Below, piece by piece: positions 22,896-64,000 of a stretch of 64,000 nucleotides of DNA (positions are counted from its first letter, which is position 1; the number at the start of each line of letters is the position of its first letter). Position numbers and translations under genes: made by a program. The notes below the pieces were generated by a model. It did no database searches. It was not told the origin of the DNA and worked only from the letters and a program-made list of their open reading frames with translations. The stretch comes from Membranipora membranacea (lineage: Eukaryota > Bryozoa > Gymnolaemata > Cheilostomatida > Membraniporidae): assembly GCA_914767715.1 (NCBI GenBank), contig OU612065.1, positions 31,682,001 through 31,746,000 on the forward strand. Direction: 5' to 3'.

Positions 22896-22986
22896 ATGGA
22901 CCTCAGCTCTGATTCTGCCAAGAGGAGAAGACTTGAGACACAAGCTCAGTCAACAGGAACAGGACAATCGGCTGGTGATCTGCATG
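22896..22986 (+). CDS. Roco-caspase exon 1: basic N-terminus
   Basis: Starts at ATG with [20 protein letters not shown] and ends in phase 1 at CATG|GTATGA. The AKRRRLE cluster resembles a monopartite nuclear localisation signal, but it could simply be a charged start. No signal peptide is present, so a cytosolic or nuclear protein is expected. The preceding 90 bases contain in-frame stops and no better ATG. Confidence 0.65.
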
Positions 22987-43900: not shown

Positions 43901-46900
43901 ACACTGTACACCCTCAACAATCATGTTAATAAACTCTAAGGTCCACACAGGTCAAATTGTGAGCGAGGGAGAGAGTAACTTTGATGTAGGAAATTTAACG
44001 ATAATTAGGAAAGACAACTCCTAAGGGTCATTTTCGAACTGAGAAGTATAATTCACTGAGTGAGGTTCCAAAATCTAGTGCTGTACCGGCCCAACATGCT
44101 ACCACTTGTATGTTATTTAGAGAAATGTAAAGGTTAATGGACTCAGTTATCTAAAGTTGTACAATGTTCCTGAAACTGAAAATAGATTTATTTTTAAGTA
44201 TGTGGAACTAATCAGTTATTAAAATTGTTTGGAAGTGGTAGCGTATTGCGCTGGTACAGCACTAGATTTTGAAACCTCATAGGCGCAATTGAAGGAGTAT
44301 TGGTCAAAAGATGAACTATTAAGGGACCCATATTCCATGTACAATTCCCTACTAGCCAGCTTACACTTTCACTTCAAAGTTTCTTACATTCACTGTCATT
44401 GTTGTTCCATTTTGTTGCTTATACAGAAATGTCTTCTTTCAATGATATATCAAATATTTGGGCAAAAATTGAATGCAGTTTTATTCAAATCTGGGGTGAA
44501 AAGTATTCATTCTAAACAACCATTCGTTTACCATATGTAGTAACCTACTACAAGGGTCATGTCACTTTGGTGTGAATGGCAGTGAAATGAAACTGTTGAG
44601 CTAGAGATTACAGGAATAGCCTGAAGGCGGTAATCGAAGCTCCCGAATTCAAATATCACAGCAGTTACCATGTTGATGGAATAGCAGCAAGATAAGGAAA
44701 AGAAGGCTGGTAAATTCGTTAATCATATGTACTATAACAAAATAATATGTCATGCGAATCGACCCAAAGAGTAGAGTGCGACTTTGACCAATAAGAGGGG
44801 GTCAGGAAAATAAACAAAGTTGAGCTAGGAATCACCTAAATCGGTTAAAGTGGGAAATCAGACCTCATGTGCCCTAATATGTCAGTAAACACATCAACAA
44901 TAGAATAGATTTATAAAACGAATAACAACGAAGAATGTTATTACATCAAATCCAATATAAGAACACACCATCTTTTTTCTTCTCCTTTGAATATATTTAT
45001 GTTTCTTCGTTTCATCTTCAATACGTCATCATTATGTCAAGTTTGGTTCTCCAGGGCAGGGGCGTATATTCTAAAAATTTTCACTCACTGACTTTTTAGA
45101 GATGACCATACTGATCGGGCGCAGCCCGATCCACATACCGTAGGCGTGGCGGGGTGGGTGTGGGAGGGGCGCTTAAGCGCCCCTCCCACCACGGAAATTT
45201 TTACATATCGGTAGCAAAGTAGTGCAAGCAGAGAGGTATTTCATTAGCTCACTGAGCTGTTGAGTACTTTCAGAAAACAACTCAATAGCAGTAGAAGATT
45301 ACGGTAAAAATTCTCCAGTTATAAAGCACCCATTTGAAAAAAATCAGACCTTGTTGGGATTCGAACCCAATTACAATATCGCCTACATTTACCCAGATGG
45401 TTAGGCTTGATTCTTTCCATCAAAGGCAGATTTCATTTTGGACTTTTGTTATCACGATCTCGAACACTTATATCATCATTAACCAAGCCCCGTACATCGG
45501 CAGTTTATGTTTCATGTCTCTGCTGTACAAAAGATCTGATGGAGTTTTCAAGGTAGCTGGGTGTGGTATGTTTCGATAGGCCATGACATAATTGGCTAAT
45601 TCAGATTTCCAATTGAGGTTGACATTTTCAACCTGCCAACTAAAGACCTATTCTGCACTTCAACTTCTCCATTTGCCTGGGGCCATCTATAGAGGGTCAC
45701 CTAATAGTGATCAATTCCCAGCAAAGTCAGATAGTCCTTAAACACGGCACTTGTAAACAGTGGGCCATTATCAGATTTGAGTGTGGTACGTATTCCATAT
45801 CTGAAGAATATATTGGCCAGTACTTCTGATGTTTGGGGTGCGGTTGTGGAGCTCAGGATAGAATAATCAACAAAGCGTGAATAATAATCTACCATTACCA
45901 TCACATACTCATTAGTTGGCTGTATGGGACTCAGAAAGTCTACACTAAAATCTGCCCATGGTTTCTTGGGCAGGTGCGTTACGCTCAGCGGCTCTGTAAT
46001 TTGACACTGGTGACATTTATTTTCACTTTATGCTCAATGTCTCTGTTTACACCAGGCCAATAAACCTTAGTCCTAGCCCTAGGCGTAGTTCCTACTATCC
46101 CAGGATTCCCCTCATGGGCCAAATCTATAACTCGCTGTCTCAATGATTTTGGAATCATGATCCTATTACCCTTAATATAATATAGCCTAACACACAAGTT
46201 CTGTGGCATTCCATCTGTCTCTACATCAGTCAGTGACCTACTGGGGTATGCTAATCACCTGATATTCCCCACTTTGGACCTGGACCAGAACCGCCTAATC
46301 CTACATTTGATGCATCACTGGTAACCATAGTCCCATTAACTACATCATAATAACCCAGGGTATGGGTGGTACATAGTGCTTGTTTTAGACTTTCAAATGC
46401 CTTCCTCTCATTCTGACTAAAATGGAATTGATCTCTGGCTTCTCCACGAATAAGTTTCCTGAGTGGTTCACATGTGTCAAATAGTAATCTGCGATGAATT
46501 TTGAGACATACTGAGTCAGCCCTAAGAAACTGCAATTTTCAGCTTGAGATGTTGGTTCACAAGCATTTTGCACAGCCTTTACATGCTTCTGCAATAGGCC
46601 TATCCCATTAACAGTTGGTTTGTGTCCTCTAATTCCAATTCTGGGACTTTGAATTTGCACTTAGCTTGGTTTAGGGCTTAATAAGTCTCTCTAAAACCTG
46701 ATCAATGATTTTGCCATGTTCCTCAGTAGTTTTGGCATATACAATAACATCATCTGACATATTAGCCACACCTTGGATACTTTGGATAAATTATTAGGCG
46801 ACGCAAAATCCATGTGCATTTTTCTTGGTCAGCTTCTTTTTCAAAAAAATTTACATTCACTTTCATTGTTTCCGCAACATCTTGCTTTCACAACATTGTC

Positions 46901-49900
46901 TTGCCTTTGAGGGGGGATATCACAACAAAAAGTGTATTATCAGAGTACAGGTGGAGGTCACCAAATAGTACTCAAAGGTTACAGTATTACAAGTTTGCTC
47001 TGGAATTCAGTGGTTATCAAACTTGCTTTATTCCCTTTCAATTACAGCATGCGTACACTCGTCAATTTGGAGAAACTGGATATATCTTACAGTAAGATGC
47101 TGCAATCCTTACCTGACTGGATTGGAGAGCTCACAACTCTCAAAATCCTCAATGTGTCATATAGCAAGCTAACTAGCCTGCCTGACAGGTATGTAATTGT
47201 AGTATTTTGAGTCTGCCTTCTCTTTTGAATGATAATCTACAGGCAATCTAGGTGCTATTTACTTTAATATTTCAATTAATTGAGTATGAATAAAGACTTC
47301 CTAAGGACCAAAGCAATAGATAGTCTGTCAGGTAGTTCTGCAATAGTTATGCAATATTTTGACACTGAAAAAAATTGAAGCTCTACAGGGTGAAAATTAT
47401 TTGTAGCTTTAGAAAATACCCCCTCTTTCATCAATTAAGCCTCTGAGGTTCCAAAATCTAGTGGTGTTGTATATGCAATGTGCAGACAAGTTTTTATCTG
47501 GAAACATCTTGAAGACTACAGAAGGACCAAAGCAATATATAGTCTGGCAGCTAGGACTACACAGAAGTTATGGAATATTTAAAAGCTGAAAAAATTCATA
47601 GCTCTTCCAAGTAAAATAATGCATTCCTTTAATAATTGCCCCCTTTTTCGTCAATTACCCCTCTGAGGTATGTAATTTAGAGAGCTGTAAAGGTTAATGG
47701 ACTCAGTTATCTAAAGTTGTACAATGTTCCTGAAACTGAAAATATATTTATTTTCTACGTATGTGGAACTAATCAGTTATTAAATATATTTGGAAGTGGT
47801 AGCATATTGCGCTGGCACAGCGCTAGATTTTGAAACCTCATAGGCGCAATTGAAGGATTATTGGTCAAAAGATGAACTATTAAGGGACCCATATTCCATG
47901 TACAATTCCCTACTAGCCAGCTTACACTTTCACTTCAAAGTTTCTTACATTCACTGTCATTGTTGTTCCATTTTGTTGCTTATACAGAAATGTCTTCTCT
48001 CAATGATATTTCAAATATTAGGGCAAAAATTGAATGCAGTTTTATTCAAATCTGAGGTGAAAAATATTCATTCTAGACAACCATTTGTTTACCATATGTA
48101 ATAACCTACTACAAGGGTCATGTTACTTTGGTGTGAATGGCAGTGAAATGAAACTGTTGAGCTAGAGATTACAAGAATAGCCTGAAGGCGGTAATCGAAG
48201 CTCTCGAATTCAAATATCACAGCAGTTGCCATGTTGATGGAATAGCAGCAAGATAAGGAAAAGAAGGCTGGTAAATAAAAGAATCATACCTACTATAACA
48301 AAATAATATGTCGTACGAATTGACCCAAAGAGTGGAGTGTGAGTTTGACCAATAAGAGGGGGTCAGTAAAATAAAGAATGTTGAGCTAGAGGTCACCTAA
48401 TTCGGCTGAAGTTGAAATCAGACCTCATGTGCCCTAATATGTCAGTAAACACATCAACAATAGAAAATATTTATAAAACGAATAACAACGAAGAATGTTA
48501 TTACATCAAATCCAATATAAGAACACACCATCTTTTTTCTTCTCCTTTGAATATATTTATGTTTCTTCGTTTCATCTTCAATACGTCATCATCATGTCAA
48601 GTTTGGTTCTCCAGGGCAGGGGCGTATATTCTAAAAATTTTCACTCACTGACTTTTTAGAGATGACCATAATGATCGGGCGCAGCCCGATCCACATGCCG
48701 TAGGCGTGGCGGGGAGGGGCGCTTAAGCGCCCCTCCCACCACGGAAATTTTTGCATATCGGTAGCAAAATAGTGCAAGCAGAGAGGTATTTCATTACCTC
48801 ACTGAGCTGTTGAGTACTTTCAGAAAACAACTCAATAGCAGTAGAAGATTACGGTAAAAATTCTCCAGTTATAAAGCACCCATTTGAAAAAAATCTGACC
48901 TTGTTGGGATTCGAACCCACAACATTCTTTATCAACAGTGATCATTAGGCACACGCTCTACACACTGAGCTATTCAGCCATTCACAGATATCTGTGGTCC
49001 GTGATTGGTAATATACGCCACTGCTCCAGGGTTGTGGTATGCGAGGCGGTCTGGCTCACATCATTTTCTTGACGATTATCATTGTTCCGCCCTGGTCTCG
49101 TCATCTTCATCCGCAGAGAGATAGGGCCTACAATAAATGGGCTCAGAATCAGTGTGGTACGTCTTCACCCTAGACTTGTTTTTTGTCACTTGTCTGCCCT
49201 CAAGAATTTCTACTGTAACTTTACTACCAATGGAATCGGCCATGGTCATAGGGTTTTTATTGAAAGTGCTTTGCATTTTTGTGGGACTGTCTCTTTGCAC
49301 AATTACAATATCGCCTACATTTACCCAGATGGTTAGGCTTGATTCTTTCCATCAAAGGCAGATTTCATTTTGGACTTTTGTTATCACGATCTCGAACACT
49401 TATATCATCATTAACCAAGCCCCGTACATCGGCAGTTTATGTTTCATGTCTCTGCCAAACAAAAGATCTGATGGAGTTTTCAAGGTAGCTGGGTGTGGTA
49501 TGTTTCGATAGGCCATGACATAATTGGCTAATTCAGCTTTCCAATTGAGATTGACATTTTCAACCTGCCAACTAAAGACCTATTCTGCACTTCAACTTAT
49601 CCATTTGCCTGGGGCCATCTATAGAGGGTCACCTAATAGTGATAAATTCCCAGCAAAGTCAGATAGTCCTTAAACACGGCACTTGTAAACAGTGGGCCAT
49701 TATCAGATTTGAGTGTGGTACGTATTCCATATCTGAAGAATATATTGGCCAGTACTTCTGATGTTTGGGATGCGGTTGTGGAGCTCATGATAGAATAATC
49801 AACAAAGCGTGAATAGTAATCTACCATTACCATCACATACTCATTAGTTGGCTGTATGGGACTCAGAAAGTCTACACTAAAATCTGCCCATGGTTTCTTG

Positions 49901-52900
49901 GGCAGGTGCGTTACGCTCAGCGGCTCTGTAATTTGACACTGGTGACATTTATTTTCACTTTATGCTCAATGTCTCTGTTTACACCAGGCCAATAAACCTT
50001 AGTCCTAGCCCTAGGCGTAGTTCCTACTATCCCAGGATTCCCCTCATGGGCCAAATCTATAACTCGCTGTCTCAATGATTTTGGAATCATGATCCTATTA
50101 CCCTTAATATAATATAGCCTAACACACAAGTTCTGTGGCATTCCATCTGTCTCTACATCAGTCAGTGACCTACTGGGGTATGCTAATCACCTGATATTCC
50201 CCACTTTGGACCTGGACCAGAATGGCACCTAATCCGAAATTTGATGCATCACTGGTAACCATAGTCTCATTAACTACATCATAATAACCCAGGGTATGGG
50301 TGGTACATAGTGCTTGTTTTAGACTTTCAAATGCCTTCCTCTCATTCTGACTAAAATGGAATTGATCTCTGGCTTCTCCACGAATAAGTTTCCTGAGTGG
50401 TTCACATGTGTCAAATAGAAATCTGGGATGAATTTTGAGACATACTGAGTCAGCCCTAAGAAACTGCAAATTTCAGCTTGAGATGTTGGTTCGCAAGCAT
50501 TTTGCACAGCCTCTACATGCTTCTGCAATAGGCCTATCCCATTAACAGTCGGTTTGTGTCCTCTAATTCCAATTCTGGGACTCTGAATTTGCACTTAGCT
50601 TGGTTTATGGTTTAATAAGTCTCTCTAAAACCTGATCAATGATTTTGCCATGTTCCTCAGTATTTGGCATATACAATAACATCATCTGACATATTAGCCA
50701 CACCTTGGATACCTGCGAGCAGTTTCTTAATCTCATGGTTAAAAATCTCAGGGGCTGAACTAACACCAAAGTTTAGTCACTCAAAGCGGTAGAGTCCTCC
50801 ATGAGTGGCAAAGGTTGTTATATAGCTGTACTCTGGTTTGATTTCTAAGTTGCTGAACAACCTACTACCATGCATATGCTGAATAATCTCAACCACAGTG
50901 GCGAGTGGATGGTGCTAGCGAATCACTGCTGCGTTGTCTCTCCTCATATCGATACACATGCGAATGTTGTTGTCTTTATGTTTAACTGTACCTGGACATG
51001 TACATGATATAGTAGTTATCAATTGCTAGTTAATTTGTTTAGATTTCACTTTTCCTACCCTTGAGAAGACATTTTCAAAACGGGATAAAATCTCCTCCAT
51101 AGTGTTTGCCGCTGTAGACTGGTTCGGTTGCAGATAGACATGTTGTCGACAGGAACCTCTGCTTCCTCACAGTCTACGAAACAAGGGAGACGAGTAGTAA
51201 ATGAACATGCAATGGAGAAAACATATCCATCAGAAGCGGATTGGTCATCTGCATGATCTATACCAGTATCATTGTCATGCAAATTTCTCACTCTATTTTT
51301 ATCATTGAGCTGGTTTCCTTTAAATCTACCACATCTACCACATTTGTTGATCCTGTTATTGTACTAATGTTCATGACTTTTCATTGTTTAGACGTATCCA
51401 AATCAGTTTTCAAAGTGAGGTTATTTTCTCTCAAAAGTTCCCATCTTATCTTGTCAGAAAGAATTCTCGATTCTAGTTGATCTCTAATCTTTATAACTGT
51501 GTCACGGAAATCACAACCGTCTGTCAAGCACCTAAGCTTAGTTGAAAATTGTGATATGGATTCACCAGTATCTTGTGAAGCTTTCCTAAACACATATGTC
51601 TTTGAAATGCAGGATTTATCTTTTGAACAAAATGTCCGGTCCGTGTCATCACAAGTTCATCATAATCAGAGTTCTGTGCAGCAGTGTCACCAGGTGTAAA
51701 TTTCCCGCACGCGCTGGCCCGCAGTACAGTAGTAGGGACCTCCTTTGGGCACGCAGCCTTGCTTTTAAGGCTTTTATCTCAGGTGAATCTTAACTTCTTC
51801 TTTATTGAAGAAACCCCTTTGTATTTGCATATTGACCAAATTCTTCAACCCACCAGCATGACCGTGTCTTGGAGATTTGAATTTTTTCTCCATCCGGTAT
51901 AAATGGCTCAGTGTCCCCGAGGCCAGCCATAGCAGTGCCGAGGGTGACAATTCTAATAGCACTAGCAATACAACTAGCAATGACACCATGCCTATATATA
52001 GAATCGGACTACTCCTAGTACTACCTAAACCTACCTAGCCCTACAATTCTATACAAGCAGAAGCATCCATGAGAATAACTAAGAAAATCATCATAATAGC
52101 AACTAGCCATGGATTAATATAATCAAGCATCCTGCCAATCTATTGTCTCAAACCCTGCGTAATACCTAACACATGACAAAAAGCACTACAATACAGTCAT
52201 CTGGTAATCTGAAGTCATCACCATGTTTTTTTTTGTTTTTTTTATTCTACAAGTCATATTCTTATGAGATTTTATTATAGATATGTTTTATTTCATCTTC
52301 CCAAACCACCATCGGATAGTTTTAGGCACTTATCTTTGTTTCAGTGAGAAGATAATAATGTGTGTAATAAATTCTGTGTTACATAAAACAGTTAGACTGG
52401 ATACATCACCCCAAACAAAAGTATCGTACCTCATGTGTGCTATCAATATACATAATTATATATTATATATATATTATATTATTAATTGCAGTAATATCTC
52501 TCTCTTCTGTAAATCTTAATTTAAACTTTTGGTTTTCTCTTTGGATTCTTCATATAGAGATACCTCCCTTGTGTAAACCATTGTGTAAACATGAGAGGAC
52601 AACTTTTCAACAGTACCTATGATTGTAAACAAAAAAATTAGTGCACTCTCCATATATCTCACCCTCCCTGGTGGTACTAAGCATCTATTATTCACTCTCA
52701 TGGCAGTGATTCACTTCAAAATCAATTGCTAACTTTACACAGTTGATCTGATAGTTCCATTTTTTTTCTCTTTAGTGTCTGCGATCTAGCCAGTTTAGAG
52801 CGACTCGATGTCCAACACAATTATCAACTCACCAAACTGCCAGCCAACCTGTTGAAGCTCACTAGTCTGAAGTCCCTTGGATGTGAAGGATGTGATTCCT

Positions 52901-55900
52901 TGAATTTTCCTCCATATGCTGTCTGTGTACAGGGCCTACAAGCAATTCATAAGTACCTGAGAGATCTGAAAAAGGGAATCGGTAAAAAGTTCATTCCCGT
53001 GACTGTTATCGGTGAATCTATGGCTGGGAAGACTAGTCTTGTCAAATCAATGCAGAGTGATAAGCGGTTTCTGACCACCCGTTCTAGCATACACCAGTTG
53101 GATGAAGCTACTAAGGTATTCAAAGTCTGTGAGGCTGACGCTGGTCCTGTTTTCAAGTTGGTATTTCATGATTTCGGTGGTCAGGTGATTTACCAATTCT
53201 CTTACCAACTTTCGTTTAGGTCTCAGTTCATCCCTCTTTTGGTCATAAACATTGCGGAATTTGATAGACTTGTGAATGAGCTTGGAGATGAAGCAGCCTG
53301 TCAAAAGGTGTGCTTTGACTGGCTCTCACATCTCTATCTATCCTGTCCCCAAGCTGGCCCTCCCCTAGTAGTTCTGACTCACCGGGATTGTATCAAGGAT
53401 CCTAAGATCTTCAAAGTGAGATGGAGCCAATTAGTACAGACAACTGAGAACCTACGGAAGAAGATAATCACTGAGGAACAGGCTCTTGCTCCGGAGTCAA
53501 CTCCATTAATACTCATGAATAGTTTCCGAGATTTATCAACGCCTCTTCTTACAAGACATAAACCCATGATCATTTATAGGGGAACTGGGAAAAAGGTCAT
53601 TAGTGACCTCAAAACTTTCCTGCTCTCAATCGGTTCACCATTGGTAACTGAGATACCAGAAAGCTGGTACAGATTCATGCTACTCTGTGCAGAGAGAACA
53701 GATCAGCCCTTTCTAACCCTTGAAGAGTTGGATTCATTGTTTCCTGATGACAAAGAGCGATACATTCTCCAATACCTTCATGAAATAGGGAGAGTAATGT
53801 GGTATAGGGAAAGAGGTAGACTAGCTAACGTTGTGTTTCATAGAATTGAACTTCTCGCCAAAGTAGTTGAGCTTCTCTTTGATCACTCTAGACAGGCTGC
53901 TTGGGATCAGCGCTTGAATGATTTTCAGCCATTTCAGCATAAAGGGTCTGGTATCAGCGAGAGAATCTACAGACAGATGGTTGACAAGTTTCTTGAAACA
54001 GGAATGATGAACACCATTCTTCTATCAAATCTCATTGTTACTGAGTCAGAGTTGATCCCCGAGCTCGCAACTGATGTTCTGAAAGTCTTCCATCTGATAT
54101 GTGGCCCAATCCATGAAGATGGGGCATATCACTACATTATCCCATACTTCAGTCAGAAGGTTATCACAGTGCTTGAAACAGGGAGTTATATTCCAATGAA
54201 AGTGGAATTGTCCTTCAATGGATTGCCAATGCCTGGTTATGTCTACCATTTGCTCACTGCAATCTTCGTTGATCATAACATTGAACACTCAGATCACATC
54301 GATGTTGGTATGAATGGTGCTTGTGTCGTAGATTTCAATGGAACAGTTGATTACTTTTCCCATAGTCATACTGATAGAACCATTACCATTCTAATATTGA
54401 CCAAACCTAAACACATCGTCAAATCCTGGGGGAGACAGTTGTCCAATGTGCAGCATTTAATATCAAAAGTGAAATCTGTCTGGAAGGGAGCTCACTTTGA
54501 TACTGTCTTTTACTGCTCACACTGTCTGATCAAAAAGGAAGTTATGCCTACTAACAGAGTCAACCCAGCATGGATGAATCTAGATGTGTCTCCTCAGTCT
54601 CTATCCCCAACTAGAGAGTACACTGGTGAGGAGGCTTCAAGATGTAAGAGGGCTCACGCTGCTGGAGGCCTGTCATCAGCTGTCCCGTTTCCCCTGCTCA
54701 GTCCATGTGAGTATTCACCACTTGAACTTTAAGATAACTCTTTGAATGCACTGCTACCTGGTTAGGTTAAACAATAATATCGACATGACTTAGATACAAC
54801 ACTAATATAACATAACAACTCAAAACAACCATAACTTTTTAAAGTAAGCGCTGTAACGATCATTCACAGATTTGACGAACAGCTATTTCTAAACCTTGGG
54901 GTCCAGCATATGTCAAAGAAAGCAATGTTCTAGCTGTTCAATGCGCATTCGTCACATTAAAACATTATGATGATATTTTCTGATTTGATCTGGTAGGTTA
55001 CAGCATTACAGAGAATGGGATTATAGCGTTGGACAAGTACCTACTGGATATCGAACCTGAGCGGAATCCGCAGAGTATGTTTATTCTTATCTTACCAACG
55101 TGTGCAAGCGGCATAAATGTTAGCTGACTTGTACAATTCTTGTCAAATTAAAATAAAGTGTAGTTGGAGATACGCTAAAGTGTCTCAGTCGCATTGTCCA
55201 AGTTAATGTAGAAACTTTTATTCTTTGGAGGATTGCGTGCTCAGCAAACGCGACAAAAGTTTCGTAGTTGAGTCTAGCCGTGTGGATTAGCGATTCGATG
55301 TTGTGTACTGCATATTAGGGTATGAAAGTCATTTTGCCTACTTCCTAAATATGTTTGTTTGTATTGTTTTCTAGCTACTGCCTTACCCTCATCTCAACCT
55401 GACGATGCGCCAGCACCTGCAGATTTACAGACAGCACATATAGATGATATTATGAGTATCGTAAACTCAGATACGGCTTCAATCGATCTACCATTTGCTC
55501 AGTCCACCATGAACCACAGAACACAGGTACTATAATCATGTGTCATTTTGCAGTCAATATGATGGTTCAACATTATTTGCCGTATTGTCATGTAGTAAAA
55601 GTTAACTAAACTGGGACTGGGTTCCATTGGCTGATTTACTGCATATAAACTTTGCAGGAAAATATTCAGCATATCATATAAGATGTACTTAACCTTTGTT
55701 AAAATTCAAGATATTTTTCCAGGAAGTGTATCCAATGTCAGAGACCCGTGGAAGAGCCCTCATCATATCTAACAATTACAACAACTCCAGACTGGGCTCA
55801 GAACATGACTATGATAACATGAAGAGAATGCTGACCAAACTAGGATTTATCACTGTTGGTGATCATCAGAACTATAGTGCTCAGGTAAACTCAGTACGAA

Positions 55901-58019
55901 ACTCATCTCACAATAGGTCCATTCACATGCAAAGCAGAATTCTCCATTGTCACAGAGTAATGCACATATTACCAATACTAAATTCCAATAAATGTGATGG
56001 ATTATCTATATATCTTATATAGAATTTTAGCCATATCTCTTGAATTGGGTGTAAACATCAGATGAAGTCATATTTTTGTTGAATGATAATATTATTCAAG
56101 GAGATGATAAAGGAGATCCACAAAGAGACACAACTGGTTGATCCACAGACAGGAGAATCAGTACATGCCCATCTGGGGTCATTTGTCTTAGTAGTTACAA
56201 GCCATGGCCATGAAGGAACAGTAGGAGGATCAGATGGTAAACAGATCAGGATTATAGACATGATCGGGCTACTGTCTCCTAAGAACTTTCCTGCTATGAA
56301 GGGAAAGCCAAAGATTGTAATGATCCAGGCTTGCGCAGGCAGTAAGTAAAGCCTATATATTGTGTCTATATTCTGCATTGATGATGATTTTTCTTTTAAT
56401 TAACCAGATAAATAAGTGTTCTTGACTCAAGTTGAATGAGAGTTCACAATCAACATCCAACAGTTGTAGTTTCGTAGCTCGATCATGGATAAGGGTGGTT
56501 TTGAGACTTGTCTTCTACTCGTGCAACTGCAAAAACTGCTTACCTGTCCTCAAATTTAAGTTAATAGACATTTTCTCTATATTTTAGGTCAGAGAGAAAT
56601 GCTGCTCACTGACACAACTCCTCCCGCTCCAGCCAATCAGAACCAGCCTGGAGTAGATATTGTGCAGCAGCCCCCTGTATCTGATGATGACTTACAAGAT
56701 GCTGATCCTGCAGATATCTCTACTGCTGACTTCATAATCATGCAGTCAAGCTTTGAATGTAAGTAAACTAGGTTTATTACAGACTGGGTGGTATAAGAGC
56801 TCAGAAGGCTGCAAGTAGGGGTTTGTGGCATCACATTTAAAAAAATTGAATTGATAATCCAATTTCACAAAATAATGCTTGCAGCCATTTAAGCAGCAGA
56901 CTTGACCAAATTTTGTTTTCACTTTCATAAAACCAATTTATTCCTGAGGGTGTATTCACAATACTTGATAGAAGCAGCTCGATGTGAGAAATAATGAGCA
57001 ATGTTGTAATAATTATGTTTCAACAGAACAGTTGGTTCTTTTTCAGCCAAAAACTCAGATTTAAATAGACTGTAATTTTGTTTTTGTTTCCAGCTTTCTC
57101 CTCCCCTCGACGAGCTAGCATAGGCTCACCATTCATCAGAACACTAGTCACTGTATTCTACAAATATGCTCATCAACTTCATATGGAGGAACTGGCAGCA
57201 ACTGTAAGCTTTGCTGCATCCATTCTTTTATGCACAGTGAATATCCATAAATACATAAAGATCTTACAGTTGTGTGTTGGTAGCTCATTGTGTATGACAT
57301 GATGATAAATTTTCAAATTGACTTGAGGCAACTTGTACACTTGAGAAGCATTTGTCAATTGATTACTTTCATGCCTTTCTCTCACTGTTTTCAATATCTA
57401 ATATGTCTATTCATAGATAAGACAGATGGTTGCGAAGATCGGAGTACAGCGAACAGAATATCTGCTCAGAACCAGAACACATAACACAGCGAGAGCTCAT
57501 GTCGCCTCTATGCCTCAGACTAGATGTACATTTCTTACTGAGAAGCTCTATTTTCAAACTGGAGTTAATATGAGGATAGAGAACCACCCTGGCTCACTGA
57601 CAAATCCTGTGTTACCCAATCCAACAGCTACTAGGATTCACCAGGAATCAGGTAAGTCATTGCTGGGAATCATTTATTAATGTCGTTGATGAGTTTTCAA
57701 CGTTATTCACTCTCTGTGATTGGAGGGGCACTTGTTTGAGTTATTCTGCCACTCCTCGGTGTAGAGATGATTGTATTCTGATAGCATATTGATAAAGAGT
57801 TTCCCATTACGGCCAATGGAACTGAGTTGATCATATCAAACATGTAAATAACTTTGATCTGATACTAATGGGTGTTCAAAGCTATAGATATTTATGTTAT
57901 TGGAAGGTGCCTTACTATACTATATTCCTATACTTATAACTGTAGATCAAACACTAACCATTGAGAGCGAAGGGCGCACTGTCAGACAGGCCACTTACTA
58001 TAAGTGGTCAGTAAGATGA
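22896..58019 (+). CDS. LRR-Roc-COR-caspase protein (Roco GTPase fused to a caspase), 19 exons
   Basis: Exons: 22896-22986, 23359-23814, 24773-25210, 25653-25878, 26696-26845, 27063-27197, 29569-29709, 33243-33383, 36216-36356, 47048-47188, 52776-54706, 54997-55074, 55375-55526, 55723-55884, 56101-56341, 56588-56758, 57094-57203, 57417-57651, 57946-58019. They sum to 5,214 nt with every phase matching, giving 1,737 residues. Approximate domains: basic N-terminus 1-30; low-complexity repeats 31-328; LRRs 400-735; Roc GTPase 757-955; COR 960-1250; linker; caspase p20 1408-1541 and p10 1590-1690. Roc-COR binds GTP and dimerises in known Roco proteins; caspases cleave after Asp. There is no kinase domain. 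The start is the first ATG of a basic exon and 5' UTR exons may be missing. The model was assembled by eye and is not transcript-verified. Confidence 0.8.
23359..23814 (+). CDS. Roco-caspase exon 2: low-complexity repeat unit 1
   Basis: 152 codons, phase 1 to phase 1. It is rich in Ser, Gln, His, Pro and Asn ([38 protein letters not shown]), with no folded domain recognised and probably disordered. It is homologous to exon 3 along its length, and flanking intron (for example TTGCAAAGTGCATCGCTGCC-like text) is duplicated with it, so the unit of duplication was about 1.4 kb of genomic DNA. Confidence 0.8.
24773..25210 (+). CDS. Roco-caspase exon 3: low-complexity repeat unit 2
   Basis: 146 codons, phase 1 to phase 1, a paralogue of exon 2 ([39 protein letters not shown]). 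The conserved islands are [16 protein letters not shown], the [12 protein letters not shown] block and the final Ser-rich tail; the rest has diverged with small in-frame deletions. Because both exons are symmetric in phase, either could be skipped without breaking the frame. Confidence 0.8.
25653..25878 (+). CDS. Roco-caspase exon 4: acidic linker leading into LRRs
   Basis: Phase 1 in, phase 2 out. It encodes an acidic segment ([20 protein letters not shown]), then [20 protein letters not shown] and [16 protein letters not shown], which already has the L-x-x-L-x-x spacing of an LRR cap. The donor is GAA|GTGAGT. Confidence 0.8.
26696..26845 (+). CDS. Roco-caspase exon 5: LRR exon 1
   Basis: 150 nt, phase 2 to phase 2, encoding two leucine-rich repeats: [15 protein letters not shown] and [18 protein letters not shown] then a final LNKLPE. 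The LPxxIGxLxxLxxLxI pattern is the LRR type seen in Roco proteins and Ras-group LRR proteins. It probably forms part of a curved ligand-binding solenoid. Confidence 0.85.
27063..27197 (+). CDS. Roco-caspase exon 6: LRR exon 2
   Basis: 135 nt, phase 2 to phase 2, a close paralogue of the preceding exon ([38 protein letters not shown]) with a five-codon deletion in the first repeat. The intron upstream (about TATCGATCATAAAGAACGAT to the acceptor) is also duplicated. A third decapitated copy of this acceptor lies at 27770-27793. Confidence 0.85.
27198..29568. other. Intron with recombinant repeat junction and MITE
   Basis: Contains part of the 26.6-27.2 kb repeat type up to about 27793 (an acceptor TTACAG plus six to seven exon bases, CATCACG). 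It then switches abruptly to the intron type that surrounds the downstream LRR exons (TATGCGTTCCTTTAATGATT). It also holds a MITE (27950-28505) and the repeated intron block GGAAGTGGTAGCGTATTGCG at about 28540. No extra LRR exon is complete here. Confidence 0.7.
27950..28505. mobile_element. Intronic MITE family B, copy 1
   Basis: About 555 bases with terminal inverted repeats CGGTTGTCACAGGCAAAAAG and, in complement at the right end, CTGGTTATCACGTGCAAAAA. The equivalent intron positions at about 30275, 44200 and 47757 join the flanks directly, so these units represent uninterrupted sites. It is non-coding. Confidence 0.7.
29569..29709 (+). CDS. Roco-caspase exon 7: LRR exon 3
   Basis: 141 nt, phase 2 to phase 2, two LRRs: [20 protein letters not shown] and [19 protein letters not shown], ending LTRLPD. 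The acceptor is TATTACAG and the donor ACAG|GTATGT. It is the first of four same-length paralogous exons that sit in genomic repeat units of about 3 kb. Confidence 0.88.
29710..33242. other. Intron carrying a LINE insertion
   Basis: The common intron block (GTATGTAATTGTAGTATTTT and onward) is followed by the GGAAGTGGTAGCGTATTGCG block at about 30310. An RTE-type LINE fragment (30735-33020) interrupts the unit, and the intron end before LRR exon 4 follows. The 83-codon open frame at 30364-30615 is repeated in other units and is treated as non-coding. Confidence 0.7.
30735..33020 (-). mobile_element. RTE-type non-LTR retrotransposon, truncated and frameshifted
   Basis: Read on the minus strand. 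An AP-endonuclease domain spans about 32900-32042, with [20 protein letters not shown], the catalytic-type LCLQETRW and [10 protein letters not shown], split by a frameshift near 32530. A reverse-transcriptase domain spans 31915-30743, with [20 protein letters not shown], motif [14 protein letters not shown] and motif [14 protein letters not shown]. Sequence stops just before the expected YxDD catalytic motif, so the 3' part is missing. This is unusual, since LINE truncation is normally 5'. The family resembles the RTE endonucleases often annotated as craniofacial development protein 2-like. Confidence 0.88.
33243..33383 (+). CDS. Roco-caspase exon 8: LRR exon 4
   Basis: 141 nt, phase 2 to phase 2: [20 protein letters not shown] then [19 protein letters not shown] and PTSLPD. 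Differences from its sister exons cluster in the variable x positions of LxxLxIxxS. Confidence 0.88.
33974..34555. mobile_element. Intronic MITE family B, copy 2
   Basis: Matches 27950-28505 nearly base for base, with a roughly 30-base extra phrase (GGGCCTAAACGGTCTATCTG) near 34210. Ends are CGGTCGTCACAGGCAAAAAG and the complement of GCACGTGATAACCG. The shared insertion in two units shows that unit duplication followed the transposition. Confidence 0.7.
35325..35600 (-). mobile_element. Ty3-type pol 3' end fragment without MITE (empty site)
   Basis: Homologous to 48605-49300 but lacking the hAT-like MITE: it reads straight through GGTTCTCCAGGGTTGTGGTA at 35365-35384. The minus-strand protein resembles the C-terminal tail after the integrase in Ty3 elements, but frames are broken. 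Confidence 0.7.
36216..36356 (+). CDS. Roco-caspase exon 9: LRR exon 5
   Basis: 141 nt, phase 2 to phase 2: [45 protein letters not shown]. It is compatible with all neighbouring LRR exons, so exon number could vary without frame loss. Confidence 0.88.
37312..37570. repeat. About 88-bp tandem triplication
   Basis: The phrase AGCAAGATAAGGAAAAGAAG through CGAATCGACCC occurs three times head to tail; the last two copies are nearly identical. Other LRR-unit introns carry it once (for example about 34690-35120 and 44680-44770), so this is a local expansion. Confidence 0.88.
37785..37965 (-). mobile_element. Ty3-type pol 3' end fragment, second empty site
   Basis: Again matches 48590-49120 without the MITE; the target sequence here is CGCCAGGG at 37843-37850, one base different from CTCCAGGG. 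It is truncated soon after, at AATAGTGCTTACTTC. Confidence 0.68.
38047..38225. repeat. Perfect 10-bp tandem array (AACGCCAAGC)
   Basis: About 18 head-to-tail copies of a 10-base unit without visible variation. Because 10 is not a multiple of 3 and the unit lacks stops, all six frames stay open across it, producing several spurious frames (65-190 codons). It lies deep in a Roco-caspase intron. The uniform copies suggest recent expansion or assembly collapse or extension. Confidence 0.97.
38400..40059. other. Unassigned intronic DNA
   Basis: No coding signal and no match elsewhere in the window that I can see. Directly after the satellite, 38270-38400 has complementary words around GCGTTGTA and GTACAACGC but no clean element. 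Confidence 0.5.
40060..41634. mobile_element. Non-autonomous DNA element with about 155-bp terminal inverted repeats
   Basis: The left end starts TTCACCGAGTGTACCCAGTT and the right end in complement starts TTCACCGGTTGTACCCAGTT. The two arms then align for about 155 bases with shared blocks GTGGTCATATTTA, GTGTTTTGTTTT, GCATTATATGTGTG and CAGGGAATTC. The interior (about 40560-41420) has five diverged repeats of GATATGC...GCTGCCGCTGAC. Short frames at 40112-40518 have no transposase motifs. Target duplications were not evident. Confidence 0.82.
41908..42654. mobile_element. MITE family A, short copy
   Basis: The left end, GGGGTTGTGTCAGGAGTTGT, and the right end in complement, GGGGACATGTTTTCCGTAGT, are followed by matching TCCCTT blocks. 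It aligns with 8194-9303 but lacks the 350-base internal insert. It contains a short TA dinucleotide run at about 42245-42265. Non-coding. Confidence 0.72.
42655..44040. other. Unassigned intronic DNA
   Basis: No gene or repeat recognised between the MITE and the next LRR-unit intron block. The open frame at 43056-43301 (minus) has no recognisable features. Confidence 0.5.
45057..45370. mobile_element. hAT-like MITE, right-truncated copy
   Basis: Begins CAGGGGCGTATATT right after CTCCAGGG and follows the full copy (48617-49023) to the B-box-like GATTCGAACCC. It then jumps to Ty3 sequence equivalent to about 49305 (AATTACAATATCGCC), losing roughly 385 bases including the right end of the MITE. 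A two- to three-base overlap at the join suggests a microhomology-type deletion after unit duplication. Confidence 0.8.
45371..46790 (-). mobile_element. Ty3-type retrotransposon fragment, copy 1
   Basis: Minus-strand pieces in element order. Reverse-transcriptase tail and RNase H-like segment 46660-46251 ([27 protein letters not shown]); integrase zinc-binding-like segment 46209-45985 ([24 protein letters not shown]); integrase core 45904-45701 ([14 protein letters not shown] and LKSDNGPLF). Frames are broken between pieces. It is near-identical to 49.3-50.7 kb, so it was copied with the LRR unit rather than transposed independently. The fragment is truncated upstream at about 46790. Confidence 0.88.
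47048..47188 (+). CDS. Roco-caspase exon 10: LRR exon 6
   Basis: 141 nt, phase 2 to phase 2: [45 protein letters not shown]. It is the last of the four 141-nt units before the long Roc-COR exon. Confidence 0.88.
48617..49023. mobile_element. Complete hAT-like MITE with tRNA-like end and 8-bp TSD
   Basis: 407 bases with 14-base terminal inverted repeats (CAGGGGCGTATATT; complement of right end CAGTGGCGTATATT), flanked by CTCCAGGG at 48609-48616 and 49024-49031. The 8-base duplication and CAGGGG-type ends fit the hAT superfamily. Inside are two strong hairpins (ATCGGGCGCAGCCCGAT; GGAGGGGCGCTTAAGCGCCC). On the minus strand a tRNA-like stretch shows A box TAGCTCAGTGTGTAGAGCG and B box GGTTCGAATCC. 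It has inserted into Ty3-type sequence. Confidence 0.92.
49032..51700 (-). mobile_element. Ty3-type retrotransposon, longest degenerate copy
   Basis: In minus-strand order: gag-like segment 51593-51381 ([30 protein letters not shown]); reverse-transcriptase core about 51000-50640 ([15 protein letters not shown]; the YxDD box appears as SDDVIVYA); RT tail and RNase H 50594-50170 ([28 protein letters not shown]); integrase zinc-binding and core 50141-49633; pol C-terminal tail 49300-49079. Many frameshifts and stops. LTRs could not be delimited. The hAT-like MITE interrupts its 3' flank, which continues left to about 48540. Confidence 0.9.
52776..54706 (+). CDS. Roco-caspase exon 11: last LRR plus Roc-COR GTPase
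   Basis: A 1,931-nt exon, phase 2 in, phase 1 out. It opens with a final LRR ([20 protein letters not shown]), then the Roc domain: P-loop GESMAGKTS at about residues 766-774, switch II DFGGQ at 819-823, and THRD at 888-891 in place of the usual NKxD, as is common in Roco proteins. COR follows: [56 protein letters not shown]. All nucleotide-binding motifs are intact, so GTP binding is expected. No kinase follows. Reading through the donor would end the protein after 27 bases, giving a possible unspliced, caspase-less isoform. Confidence 0.93.
54997..55074 (+). CDS. Roco-caspase exon 12: linker
   Basis: 78 nt, phase 1 to phase 1: [20 protein letters not shown]. Short, amphipathic and acidic, with no recognised domain. 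Acceptor TGGTAG, donor CAGA|GTATGT. Confidence 0.72.
55375..55526 (+). CDS. Roco-caspase exon 13: Asp/Pro/Ala-rich linker
   Basis: 152 nt, phase 1 to phase 0. [20 protein letters not shown] then [19 protein letters not shown]. Probably a flexible tether between COR and caspase, and rich in Asp, so it could be a self-cleavage region. No CARD or death fold is visible. Confidence 0.75.
55723..55884 (+). CDS. Roco-caspase exon 14: caspase p20, first half
   Basis: 54 codons, phase 0 to phase 0. [20 protein letters not shown] then [18 protein letters not shown] is the classic opening of the caspase p20 subunit: the Arg-Gly-x-x-Leu-Ile-Ile-x-Asn strand, the substrate-pocket Arg before Leu-Gly, the conserved Asp-x-x-Asn-Met and the Leu-Gly-Phe helix end. 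Acceptor TTTTTCCAG is strong. Confidence 0.93.
56101..56341 (+). CDS. Roco-caspase exon 15: caspase p20 catalytic half
   Basis: 241 nt, phase 0 to phase 1. [14 protein letters not shown] holds the catalytic His (about residue 1496) and [12 protein letters not shown] the catalytic Cys (about 1539). The usual pentapeptide QACRG reads QACAG here, losing the Arg. The order and spacing of motifs are normal for an active caspase. The acceptor is ATTATTCAAG, weaker than its neighbours. Confidence 0.93.
56588..56758 (+). CDS. Roco-caspase exon 16: p20-p10 intersubunit linker
   Basis: 171 nt, phase 1 to phase 1. Pro/Gln-rich and then strongly acidic ([17 protein letters not shown]), ending [11 protein letters not shown], which leads into the p10 strand. 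Caspases are activated by cleavage after Asp in this linker, and the Asp cluster gives several candidate sites. The linker is longer than in many effector caspases. Confidence 0.85.
57094..57203 (+). CDS. Roco-caspase exon 17: caspase p10, first half
   Basis: 110 nt, phase 1 to phase 0. [20 protein letters not shown] aligns with the p10 motif Ser-Trp-Arg...Gly-Ser-x-Phe-Ile: the pocket Arg and the Gly-Ser-x-Phe-Ile are kept but the Trp is replaced by Pro. The helix [14 protein letters not shown] follows as expected. Confidence 0.9.
57417..57651 (+). CDS. Roco-caspase exon 18: caspase p10, second half and tail
   Basis: 235 nt, phase 0 to phase 1. [16 protein letters not shown] is the typical closing strand of a caspase p10. 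It is followed by a non-conserved C-terminal extension ([20 protein letters not shown]). Confidence 0.9.
57946..58019 (+). CDS. Roco-caspase exon 19: terminal exon
   Basis: Phase 1 in; encodes [20 protein letters not shown] then Trp-Ser-Val-Arg and TGA at 58017-58019. A short extension beyond p10 with no known function. The acceptor is AACTGTAG. Confidence 0.75.
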
Positions 58020-60237: not shown

Positions 60238-62401
60238 CTAGTCAGTTTTCACATTAGAACTTTGTGATGACGTAGAGTTAGCTGCCTCCTCAGCTGTAGA
60301 ACTGCGGCGTCTCAACACCCTGAGAACTCCTAATACCATCTTACGATACCAGTATAAATTCATAGCATCGAGAGTAAACCCAGCCAGCAGTGTGCCGGGG
60401 AGGTGATAGTATGTAGTGGGTGCCTCCTGACTCATATATAGGGTATAATAAGAATAAGGCATCGGGATTATCCTGGCTATTGTGAATGTGAATAACATTA
60501 ATAGTCCGTTGTAATAGTAAGCACTTCCCCACTTCATATCACAGTCGTGTAGAATTACCCTGTAAAACAAAGATTGATGGTACTGTAACATTATGTAAAC
60601 AACTCTGCTTGGAAATTGCCTGATTTAAAATGAAAGTGCCTGGAATATGGGTTTTTTTTCACTATAATGCTAAACAGGCCCGTAGTTCAAGAGGAGGCAG
60701 GGGCGCTCTGCCTGCCCTAGAATGGTTGATAGAGTGGCCTTAAACTGCTTTAATTGAATATTCCATATCAGAATCAGCTCATTCGGGACTTCGATGCGCT
60801 ATTCATATCATTAAAACGCTTTGGAGGCTGAGGATTAGCCCCAGTCTCCACAGGAGGAGCTTACAATACCCTTTGTAACACCCTCATCCATTTTACCTAA
60901 GCTACAGCCCTGCTGTATCACTGATCACACATGAGTAAGCTAGTCGATATATTTTTTATCACTGTTTACCGTTGATATTGATGTTCAACTCATCAGATAT
61001 TTGTATATTAGGAAACATGCTTGATTCTGAGCAAACATCTTGTGCTACGCTCATTCATTACCTCAAATTAACATTTATAGTTGACAGTTCAGCAAACAGC
61101 CTTAGTATTGTAAGATATAGGTATAGTTTCATTTCCTGCAAAATGAATAAAGTAAGTATGATTCGCTATAATTTCATCTTTGAAGCATTTGCAAATTATT
61201 CAAGGCGATGGAACTCCGAATATATCTTGGCCAATAATAAGGTCGCAGCTCTGCAACTATATATGCAATGCTTTGTGATGAATTCATCAAGTACCAAGCA
61301 GCACATAAACTTTATTCACCACAGCTCTTGGTCTATAGTTGTACCATGCAAACCCACTGATATATATTCCTGGATTAAGGGAACATATCTGACCCTGAAC
61401 AAGCCCATGGCAATTTACGTATGATTGCCGGAAAAAATTTCTCATCTATGATTGGTCCAAAAGTTCAGTTATGCTACAACCGACCCCTTGTAAACATTTT
61501 GTCTAAGTTTTTAAAGGTCTTTACTGGGAAGTCAGTCAAAGCATAATGTTAAAGCTGCCAAAATTTTAGCTAGACCCAACTACTGACACAAAGTTATATA
61601 CTGATGTAATTTTTCCACAAATAGCCATACTGTGTATTTTACCACAAATCCATGTGCAAACCTGATCTACTCATTATCATTATGGTCTGAAGTATTTAAA
61701 ATTTTCTAAATGCAGTCACTTTGCTCAAGGAGACAAGACAAGTACTAGATGAGTTCAGTTGGTACATGTAGTGTTTATGAGTTCTGCTTACCCAGACAAA
61801 GTAAAAAGTCAGGATGGTGGTAATATGATGTACAATAAAGATTGCTTCTCCTATCTTCTTATAATGGTAAATGAGCACAATCGTATCTGAAAAACAAATC
61901 ATCGTATTTATTTTTACGATAAGATAGTACAACTACCAGCTACCAAACACAACTACCATCAACCAGAAGTTCACCAGTTTACATTGTTTGTCAAACTCAC
62001 TCTAGCTAACAGTTTGAGGTTTAGGTTTAGGTAAGCCAATGTGTTAGCTCTGAATGGTTGGGTAGGGTTTTCCCCCCCTCACAGACCAATCGGAATATAT
62101 TGGCTAGGCTTTGACAAGGCTTTGGCTCCTTTGTGTGACCATATAATCAGTCCTTACCGATATCTTTGTTCCCCATACTGCTGATGTTCCCGTCAATAAT
62201 GAGACTCAGACTTTGGTTCACAGAATTCAATGGAAACAAAGTAACTTCTTAATAGCCTGTAAGTCTCTTAGTCGTAAAAACTTCATAGAGGTAAATTTCT
62301 GGATTTTTTTCAGCTCACATTTATGTAAAGTAATGATCTTACCTGCAATCATATATCCACAAGCTATCGTACATACAATCAGACTATCATGGCTGACCTC
62401 T
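60238..62401 (-). CDS. TLC-domain multipass membrane protein (TLCD4/TMEM56-like), four 3' exons
   Basis: Minus-strand exons in transcript order: 62401-62343, 61886-61792, 61135-61062, 60559-60238. Phases agree (the 62343 junction is phase 1, then 0, then 2). The protein runs LIVCTIACGYMIA, D-TIVLIYHYKKIGEAIFIV, HHITTILTFYFVW, LRLFAELSTINVNLR, ILHDCDMKWGSAYYYNGLL, MPYSYYTLY, LDAMNLYWYRKMVLGVL, and a Ser/Glu/Thr-rich tail ending SNVKTD. The Gly-Tyr-x-x-x-Asp, the His-His pair and the LRLFAELS motif are the landmarks of the TRAM/LAG1/CLN8 domain. Proteins of this family reside in ER or other membranes and are linked to lipid metabolism or transport. N-terminal exons should lie beyond 62401. The 62401 boundary could be 62399 or 62397. 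Confidence 0.85.
62034..62110. repeat. Small inverted repeat in TLC intron
   Basis: AGCCAATGTGTTAGCTCTGA on the left and CCAATCGGAATATATTGGCT on the right form imperfect inverted arms. The left arm matches the arm of the MITE at 21229-21582 (AGCCAATCTGTTAGCTCTGA), so this is a short member of the same family. Confidence 0.6.
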
Positions 62402-64000
62402 CTAAAAACGTGAGAGAAGCACATTTGAAATTTAAAGATTATATTATGATGCTACAAAATTGACCAGGGGCAAAAAACAAGAGCTAACAGTTATTTTGCC
62501 AAATAATTTCGTTCAAAAATAGTTAAAAACATCTAAAAATTGAAAGTTTGCGCAAAACGTGCCAACAAAATCCTTATCTAAATTGAAGAATGCTAACTAC
62601 AAAGAAAAACAAGTAGTGTACTACTCAATTGGAGAATTTCAGATCAATGTTCAGAAAAAATTGACCTGCTATTGCGAAATTAAATCCTTGATTTGTGTCT
62701 GTATGGCCAACTAAAAGAGTTTATTGGAATTTGCTTGGCAGTTACAGGCTGCTGCAATTGGTGAACAGCAAGCTGTGGAAACAGTCATCAGTTATCATTA
62801 ATACAAACCTCAGGAAGTCTGCATTCATCTTCTCATCGTAAACAAACAGATAGAAAGAGAGAAAGCTGATAATTATTGCATGGAAGGAGGAGACAATAAT
62901 CTGAAAAATAAATTGAGCTTTTAAAATAATCTAATCAGTTACCAGTGGGCAAAATCTAGTGGTAGCTAGGTTGCTACAACATATCCTGACATGTGATACC
63001 ATACCATAGTGCTAGAAATAGAGCTGTGTTTCCAATAAGTGCATAATAATGGAAGCTCTAGTCTCTGACCTCGTTATCATTTCCCCCAAACACCATTGTG
63101 ATTGTCGTGACCTGAATTATAATGTCAATTTACTATGAGGTAACGTCTTGAGCCAGTCATGCTACCAACAAAATGATCGTGTGCCGAGGCCATGTAACTC
63201 AGCCATTTCATCAGTGATTAAACCTATTTTTCTGTAGGATAGTCCTTTGACATAGTCTATACCTGCAGCACAGCAATAATGGAGCTGCCTTCCATCAAGA
63301 AAGGCAACTCCGTGCCCCAGAGTTCTATTGAGACCTAAATATGTCTTCTTGGTTTGTATTGTTTTCCCATTTTAAGGACTCAGTCTAGGTGAATCATTTC
63401 AGGTCCTTTGCTGCAGAGACAAAAATATGCCTCAACACTTTACACATGCGCTGAGAGGATTAAATGTGGTACTACATCATATGAGAAAGTCTACTTATGG
63501 TCTCGAAGGTCAGATTGGAGATCTTCATAGACTCCCTAAGGGGAACTACAATGTCTCTCTGATTTGGCATCTTGACTAACAGCATTTTCATTATAGGGCC
63601 AATTTTGTCAAAACATTTCTTCGCCCATGCTAATCATTCATGTAACAAGTAACCCTGTAGAATGATTTTGTAATGTTTACTTTCTTCACAATACAATACA
63701 CAAAAGCCCCTGACTAGCAAGATCAAAGGAAGCCATATCACTGAAACCAGGCTAAAATTGGTCACCAAATGAGAGGGTTAAACCATAGATTGTCACTCGC
63801 TCTTTGACAGTATTTGATGTTATTGAGAGGCCTCAGGTGCTTTGTGGGATTGTCTCCTAACAAACATACTAGGTTAATCTTAGAGTAAGATCCAAAAATC
63901 TGGTTTCCGCAACATGGAGGCTTGTTACCGGGTGCAATCAAGGAGTTAACTCAAACTCCTAAATGCAATGCACTATATTTGTATTGATGTGATATCTGAT
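62177..64000. repeat. Direct segmental duplication, copy 2 (partner 1-1825)
   Basis: Aligns with the window start at about 97 percent by eye over its whole length, to the last base of the window. It includes the intact TLC exon 62343-62401. The rest is presumed intron of the TLC gene; no further exon was identified with confidence. Confidence 0.93.

Follow-up and report, generated by a model that had tools for sequence, protein, structure and literature searches.

Structure of the Gene at the Locus

The stretch of Membranipora membranacea DNA analyzed here (64,000 nt in full, contig OU612065.1, positions 31,682,001 to 31,746,000 of the forward strand; hereafter the window) carries on its + strand, from position 22896 to 58019, what is almost certainly one gene for a protein of 1,737 residues, a gene-level fusion in which leucine-rich repeats (LRRs), a Roc GTPase domain, a COR domain, a linker with two motifs and a complete caspase follow one another in a single predicted polypeptide. 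An earlier note on this DNA had proposed a model in which 19 exons give 1,737 codons and a stop without a phase conflict, and rebuilding it from the DNA reproduced it exactly, with 18 GT-AG introns and no internal stop. The in-phase splice that the note had described, from the LRR-Roc-COR exon into the exons for caspase p20 and p10 with no stop between them, was likewise recovered, as exons 11–19 join into 1,050 stop-free codons across 8 GT-AG introns of consistent phase.

The upstream part of the gene comprises ten exons (22896-47188). In the in-frame GT-AG model, exons 1–4 (22896-22986, 23359-23814, 24773-25210, and 25653-25878) supply the N-terminal 403 codons, which have a basic start and contain no known domain, and exons 2 and 3 form a duplicated low-complexity pair (355 of 438 aligned bases identical). 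Exons 5 and 6 (26696-26845 and 27063-27197), assigned from the gene model and Pfam, are a pair of LRR exons of phase 2-2. They are followed by four further LRR exons, 7–10 (29569-29709, 33243-33383, 36216-36356, and 47048-47188), each of which is 141 nt long and of phase 2-2, so that gain or loss of any of them keeps the frame.

Exon 11 (52776-54706) encodes the last LRRs, the Roc GTPase (P-loop at 53011-53034), and COR. The intron that leads from COR to the linker (54707-54996) opens at a T|GT donor and contains a read-through stop at 54730-54732. The linker itself is encoded by exons 12 and 13 (54997-55074 and 55375-55526), in which two conserved helix-like motifs can be discerned by eye; exon 12 is a 78-nt cassette of phase 1-1, so that the fusion keeps its frame whether this exon is included or skipped. 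Caspase p20 occupies exons 14 and 15 (55723-55884 and 56101-56341), with a P1-binding Arg in SRLGS, the catalytic His at 56203-56205 and the Cys of QACAG at 56332-56334. The Asp-rich exon 16 (56588-56758) encodes the inter-subunit linker between p20 and p10, which aligns at the linker of caspase-9, and exons 17–19 (57094-57203, 57417-57651, and 57946-58019) encode p10 (SPRR..GSPF) and a C-terminal tail that ends at the stop codon TGA (58017-58019).

The LRR, Roc, and COR Regions

Pfam searches of the N-terminal 733 residues returned LRR families exclusively at E ≤ 0.1 (LRR_14 at 3.7e-42 and LRR_8 at 1.4e-23). The predicted protein has about a dozen LRRs, with two repeats in each of exons 7–10 as judged by eye, and LRR_4 is matched at 0.00099 in exon 11 alone and at 0.002 in the spliced C-terminal 1,050 residues. 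Roc (PF08477) is found in exon 11 alone at 3.4e-6 (27.7 bits against a cut-off of 27) and in the spliced 1,050 residues at 6.9e-6 (26.7 bits against the same cut-off). In the wider family, Roc is matched at E ≤ 0.01 in 17 of 17 aligned members, and the G1, G3, and G4 residues (GxxxAGK[TS]S, DxGG, and THxD) are invariant in all 17. Among solved structures, exon 11 matches CtRoco (PDB 3dpu) by sequence at 3.2e-6, and a profile of the 17 members matches it at 2.9e-15, with nearly all of the alignment falling in Roc; for COR by itself this profile gave no significant PDB match.

COR was assessed through the COR-A profile, which 10 of the 17 members match at E ≤ 0.01 (best 9.6e-6). Two results weigh against this part of the assignment: COR-A in the window copy (0.0066 in exon 11, 0.011 in the spliced protein) lies under the Pfam cut-off in both forms, and 2 of the 79 matches in a COR-A profile search of the genome pass that cut-off. 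The Pfam search that had been named as a check of the architecture thus recovered Roc at its cut-off and the full Peptidase_C14, and left COR-A in the window copy short of its own. A single-sequence AlphaFold model of exon 11 was discarded (mean predicted local distance difference test score, pLDDT, of 34.4). Taken at the level of sequence, LRRs, a Roc GTPase and a COR directly after Roc place the protein in the Roco family, with COR weak when considered alone.

The Caspase Region

In the spliced C-terminal 1,050 residues, Peptidase_C14 is matched by Pfam over the whole of its profile (2.4e-32, positions 1–233 of 233). Exon by exon, the match is 1.2e-6 for exon 14, 8e-9 for exon 15 and a weak 0.044 for exon 17, while exon 18 alone has no Pfam match. 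The PDB sequences closest to the tail are caspase-9 (3.2e-14, query 21–238), CED-3, and caspase-6. Aligned with caspases of known structure, the window protein retains both catalytic residues, His in SHGHEG and Cys in QACAG, as well as the P1-pocket residues in SRLGS, QAC, and SPRR, whose Arg, Gln, and Arg, respectively, we take to be the holders of the P1 aspartate. The catalytic pair and the three P1-pocket residues are intact in 19 of 20 copies from this genome, window included, and judged by these residues the caspase is complete and probably active. Pro flanks the p10 Arg on both sides where caspase-9 and CED-3 have Trp, a substitution that suggests a changed side-pocket preference, and the Asp-rich linker of exon 16 may hold candidate self-cleavage sites.

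A departure from this pattern is L026 (G000:C10:22185795-22193911, ~22.19 Mb), in which the first P1 Arg is changed to Thr, the catalytic His to Thr and the Cys to Val, with exon 11 and the p20 exon both free of stops. By its residues L026 is a pseudo-caspase. Pseudo-caspases that act as regulators are known elsewhere, and by analogy L026 may perhaps have such a role.

It is also important to consider which domains the caspase is joined to. Pfam detected no death-fold domain (CARD, DED) in the N-terminal 733 residues (E ≤ 1), the C-terminal 1,050 residues (E ≤ 0.1) or the linker (E ≤ 5), and no NACHT or NB-ARC ATPase in either the N-terminal 733 or the C-terminal 1,050 residues. Linker exons 12–13 match no Pfam family at all at E ≤ 5, and the idea that they might conceal a death-fold domain was dropped for lack of such a match.

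A Family of Roco-Caspase Loci

To place the locus among its relatives, the window's own genome (339 Mb in 18 contigs) was searched, and the family counts given here are lower bounds. Exon 11 gave 69 scored matches (445 at a first look) that are 42–100% identical and all without internal stops; 29 of these, namely the 20 best, window included, and the last 9 listed, were initially read by sequence. Caspase exons 14–18 lie downstream on the same strand in every one of the 20 best loci. From the caspase side, the window's p20 exon gave 150 scored matches (212 at a first look) on ten contigs. A listed p20 exon stands 1.1–3.3 kb downstream, on the same strand, of 42 of the 69 Roc-COR exons, among them every one of the 41 (window included) whose identity is 54% or higher. 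Searching the genome with the COR-A profile (E ≤ 1) contributed 49 places outside the exon 11 list, and for 24 of these a listed caspase exon lies no more than 6 kb away. In total, 66 of the 150 p20 exons have a listed Roc-COR or COR-A partner at up to 6 kb, pairs which are defined by coordinates and, on the caspase side, by the p20 exon alone.

Reading by sequence gave a consistent picture from both ends. A caspase is present in all 31 loci approached from Roc (20 + 9 + 2, window included), and a sample of 4 out of 108 unpaired caspase exons (on C9, C5, C8, and C11) has a Roc-COR exon directly upstream in each case, at 25–41% identity, the C5 sample being also among the 66 pairs. At least 80 loci therefore have a Roc-COR exon followed by a caspase (66 + 9 + 2 + 3), a number that leaves out 17 Roc-COR and 24 COR-A places for which no caspase is listed, and most of 84 unpaired caspase exons. 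The LRRs viewed in the relatives are those at the start of exon 11. Judged from these sequences, the locus is a member of a large LRR-Roc-COR-caspase family in this genome; the single Roco-caspase fusion put forward in the earlier note is borne out at the gene level but is not a lone case.

The caspases of the family fall into two types, with nine distant copies as well as L042 and L043 carrying a divergent type (HG, QAC, and RGAF motifs). When pieces of three distant copies, L029, L030, and L035, were searched with Pfam, the p20-like pieces gave 1.6e-4, 0.015, and no match, and the p10-like pieces 2.2e-4, 6.1e-4, and 8.6e-11, respectively; in the other six distant copies and in L042 and L043 the caspase call is made from the motifs. 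That distant relatives lack a caspase had first been suggested by just two weak p20 matches (E 0.05 and 0.02) among the nine, and was discarded on finding HG and QAC motifs in the frames of all nine.

Some Roc-COR or COR-A places sit in very long single open frames, pointing to intron-poor relatives (G000:C11:2957960-2959843, 1,745 aa; C11:3049855-3050037, 2,462 aa; C1:30534585-30536486, 1,634 aa; C3:14199593-14199835, 1,705 aa).

One Gene or Two: The Junction Between COR and Caspase

The question of whether receptor and caspase belong to one gene turns on the COR exon and on what follows it. In all 33 loci compared (L009-L041, window included; for L040 the final Pro-Cys in frame was taken as the junction), a phase-1 T|GT donor closes the COR exon at the same place, while the stop that would be met on reading through past this donor takes 12 different positions, between +8 and +101 bases. 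The donor is kept and the stop distance varies, which means that the splice site is conserved more than the stop. The acceptor after the COR intron starts with GT or GC in 20 of 20 loci, making the junction codon Cys in all 20, a call that for L027 and L028 rests on weak exon 12 matches. The linker is conserved as protein, with exon 12 found in 18 and exon 13 in 17 of the 20 loci (tblastn E < 1, window included). Over four between-clade pairs the pooled nonsynonymous (dN) and synonymous (dS) divergences give dN/dS of 0.43/1.09 for exon 12 and 0.36/1.00 for exon 13, and dN is below dS in both exons also in three pairs tried inside the window's cluster. Conservation of donor, junction codon, and linker together makes the chance adjacency of two genes very unlikely, and we have set it aside on these grounds.

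Several observations nevertheless weigh against reading the locus as one gene. The position of the read-through stop is not free everywhere, since it lies at +8 in 11 of the 33 loci; L027 and L028 have no in-frame exon 12 donor that we could find and are missing exon 13; and in three near-identical pairs exon 13 has a dN of 0.03–0.04 at a dS of 0, arising from one or two changes each. A separate start of the caspase is only partly excluded, as 17 of 20 copies have some Met either in the frame of exon 13 or ahead of the caspase core, with in-frame Met codons in exons 13 and 14 of the window copy, and a break between linker and caspase in the exchange of modules (described below) would also suit separable units. 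The Met codons and this break, together with the stop that the unspliced exon 11 meets 26 bases past the donor, are what would favor two adjacent genes, a Roco gene ending near 54730 and a caspase gene starting near 55.4–55.7 kb. Transcripts that end at that stop had been named as the case that would refute the fusion, and it is made improbable, though from sequence, by the donor kept in 33 of 33 loci, the varying stop and the conserved linker. Three of the 20 copies (L016, L017, and L025) moreover have no Met in either of these places, and the order of Roc-COR then caspase recurs in the at least 80 loci on several contigs, so that we regard two genes as highly improbable.

A gene that, through alternative splicing or intron retention, yields a Roco-only protein ending at the read-through stop alongside the fusion would account for the presence of such a stop after the donor in each of the 33 loci and for exon 12 being a phase 1-1 cassette. 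The read-through tail, however, differs in length and sequence between loci, and we consider this dual output unlikely. Least credible of all is that the gene is an assembly artefact or a decayed pseudogene: its introns do hold many near-identical repeats, but its 1,737 codons are stop-free, two copies of exon 11 that are 97% identical and have open frames lie elsewhere on the contig, and Roc-COR dN/dS in the cluster is about 0.25.

Exchange of Receptor and Caspase Modules

Comparison of single copies indicates that the two halves of these genes have not always been inherited together. L016 and L018 are 90–99% identical through Roc-COR and linker and then 55–78% identical in the caspase part, whereas L018 and L020 are 48–85% identical through Roc-COR and linker and then 92–98% in the caspase part. 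The switch point in L018 lies near position 3000 (at 50-base resolution), and caspase exon 14 of this copy starts at ~3014. Trees disagree on L018 in the same manner, Roc-COR grouping it with L016/L017 (100/100) and the caspase with L020 (100/100), and the approximately unbiased (AU) test, for groups chosen after the pairwise pattern was known, rejects the opposite grouping in each (p 1.9e-5 and 1.0e-83). A second, weaker case is L013, whose Roc-COR is nearest L015 and whose caspase is nearest L009, with the caspase rejecting L013 + L015 at p 0.006. Of the seven copies in the window's own cluster, five have the same p20 protein and two are 95% identical in it, while Roc-COR is of two types; between L009 and L013, dS is 0.48 in Roc-COR and 0 to 0.08 in the caspase exons.

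Misassembly of single copies is a possible source of the module-exchange signal. As the sequences stand, L018 is an L016-like receptor joined to an L020-like caspase, and recombination at a point shortly before the caspase exons swaps receptor and caspase halves.

Duplication of LRR Exons

LRR exons 7–10 are near-identical duplicates (86.5–90.8% identity), and exon duplication is evident in this part of the gene. Whether the copies have been driven apart by selection is a matter of mixed evidence. In favor, dN exceeds dS in four of the six pairs, and the 3' intron flank (95–98% identical) differs less between copies than the LRR exons do. Against it, they are less divergent than the 5' flank (54–96% identical) in five of six pairs, and with both flanks pooled it is the introns that have diverged more (odds ratio for the exons 0.71, p 0.0036, the pairs being non-independent). 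Diversifying selection is therefore not established. By eye, a third copy of the exon start of the exon 5/6 LRR type can be seen from 27785, which breaks off after a few bases and is possibly a remnant of exon loss or exchange.

Other Features of the Window

The two ends of the window (1-1825 and 62176-64000) share 97.9% identity along 1,825 bp, which would fit a duplication of about 62 kb within the cluster of Roco-caspases on contig C1. The two introns that flank LRR exon 10 contain 98% identical copies of one stretch (45368-46780 and 49300-50712) with minus-strand frames that look retrotransposon-like by eye, and the intron between LRR exons 7 and 8 contains a reverse transcriptase frame at 30743-31996 on the - strand (Pfam RVT_1, 4e-22). 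Downstream of the gene, on the opposite strand, are matches to the TLC domain (TRAM_LAG1_CLN8) at 60241-60624 (4.8e-7) and 61699-61932 (0.0011). A ten-base tandem repeat, GCAACGCCAA, runs from 38039 to 38225 in 18.8 copies with 98% matches. A 29-base tandem repeat of 8 copies (10467-10699) lies where a possible coding region upstream, near 9438-10495, comes to its end; of this region, the frame at 9438-9767 has no Pfam match.

Comparison With Known Systems

We found no report of an animal Roco-caspase in the literature searched, the loci compared here all being from the window's own genome. The novelty claimed for this architecture by the earlier note holds to that extent for animals, and it is narrowed by a bacterial precedent (PMC8195603) and by LRR-caspases of amphioxus (PMC2575513). 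Among metazoan Roco proteins (LRRK1/2, the MASL1 type, and DAPK1; PMC6337361), the Roc-COR core is shared with the window protein and LRRs stand in front of it in most, but none of these ends in a caspase, their C-terminus being a kinase, a death domain or nothing. In amphioxus, LRR-caspase and TNFR-caspase proteins, which keep QACXG, likewise join a sensor directly to a caspase, an arrangement put forward as a short route to apoptosis; Roc is absent from the main text of that paper (PMC2575513).

The ROCO proteins of brown algae (PMC11378527) resemble the window protein in having LRR-Roc-COR with LRR exons of phase 2, which in the algae are shuffled and under diversifying selection, and a small group, like some other members from stramenopiles, alveolates and Rhizaria (SAR), has a C-terminal peptidase. 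That peptidase is IPR009003 and not a caspase (a word that occurs 0 times in PMC11378527), and the algal genes have one LRR per 72-bp exon as opposed to two per 141-bp exon in the window gene, where diversifying selection is not established. LRR-GTPase-TIR and TIR-ROCO proteins are described in anemones and Aplysia (PMC5094078, PMC9334734), and a figure legend in a paper on a sponge's NLRs names both CASc and COR (PMC12909245).

A parallel in design is found in bacteria. A caspase is one of at least 24 C-terminal domains, TIR and trypsin also among them, reported in 2021 for bacterial LRR-AP-GTPase(Roc)-COR proteins (PMC8195603), and rarer AP-GTPase-COR effectors occur in bacterial conflict systems (PMC7159879). 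The window protein is like these AP-GTPase(Roc)-COR conflict proteins in having N-terminal LRRs, Roc-COR, and a C-terminal effector (PMC8195603). It differs in that its tail is closest to animal caspases and its gene has 19 exons, and where the bacterial effectors vary behind the same domain order, caspases of two types are the only ones among the 35 loci read here on one side. A pattern scan of GTDB species genomes, which is a limited test, found no prokaryote relatives, and scans of prokaryote and viral contigs found no Roc-COR relatives.

Proposed Mechanism and Meaning

NLRs, Apaf-1, and PIDD1 combine a repeat sensor, a switch, and a proximity-activated caspase, which is a separate protein recruited via death-fold domains. 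The window protein seems alike in principle, whereas its caspase is covalent, its switch is a GTPase and it has no NACHT or NB-ARC match. Initiator caspases activate when brought together, and in the mechanism we propose the LRRs would bind a danger or microbial signal, upon which the nucleotide state of Roc and the COR-mediated equilibrium between monomer and dimer or oligomer would change. Two caspase tails would then be brought together and become active by proximity, and the active caspases would cut the Asp-rich linker and subsequently cell substrates, leading to death or an inflammation-like defence. The LRR array grows through exon duplication, with receptor and caspase halves exchanged by recombination. 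For Roco proteins in general, cycling between monomer and dimer with the nucleotide state is thought to occur, with COR a main contact (PMC6337361). Ligand sensing, GTP control, proximity activation, and a role in defence are steps that we infer, and to the full statement, that of a one-gene family of receptor-proteases with GTP-controlled proximity activation in defence, we assign a probability of roughly 0.64.

Expansion, tandem clusters, LRR exon duplication, and module exchange fit with a recognition family. The fusion could be real and yet serve as no immune or death receptor, acting instead in limited signaling or processing or as a scaffold, with the expansion serving, for example, self-recognition or development. 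The near relative L026 without catalytic His and Cys, the failure of Pfam to find a death-fold domain, and LRR diversification that is not clearly shown would all be at home in such a role. On the other hand, the catalytic residues are intact in 19 of 20 copies, and recognition receptors commonly expand in tandem and exchange modules; we think a role outside immunity rather unlikely, although it is the alternative to be taken most seriously. A broader form of the defence reading is more tentative, at just under even odds. On this view the genome would encode some 100 to 200 LRR-Roc-COR-caspase receptor-executioners, or more, each in one piece, expanded by LRR exon duplication and the swapping of halves and with dead members as regulators. 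Such a protein would in effect be a single-polypeptide inflammasome run by a GTPase and not by a STAND ATPase, and the repertoire would be for an animal what NLRs are for plants and Roc-COR defence is for bacteria.

Should this mechanism be correct, a caspase on the same chain would give a direct readout of GTP-dependent dimerisation through Roc-COR, a process under debate for LRRK2 in Parkinson's disease. The protein would also, if this is true, be an animal caspase-activating receptor with neither a detectable death-fold adaptor nor a STAND ATPase, parallel to the bacterial design. A tandem family with exchanged modules would in turn offer a route to ask how innate receptors keep their effector while the sensor changes.

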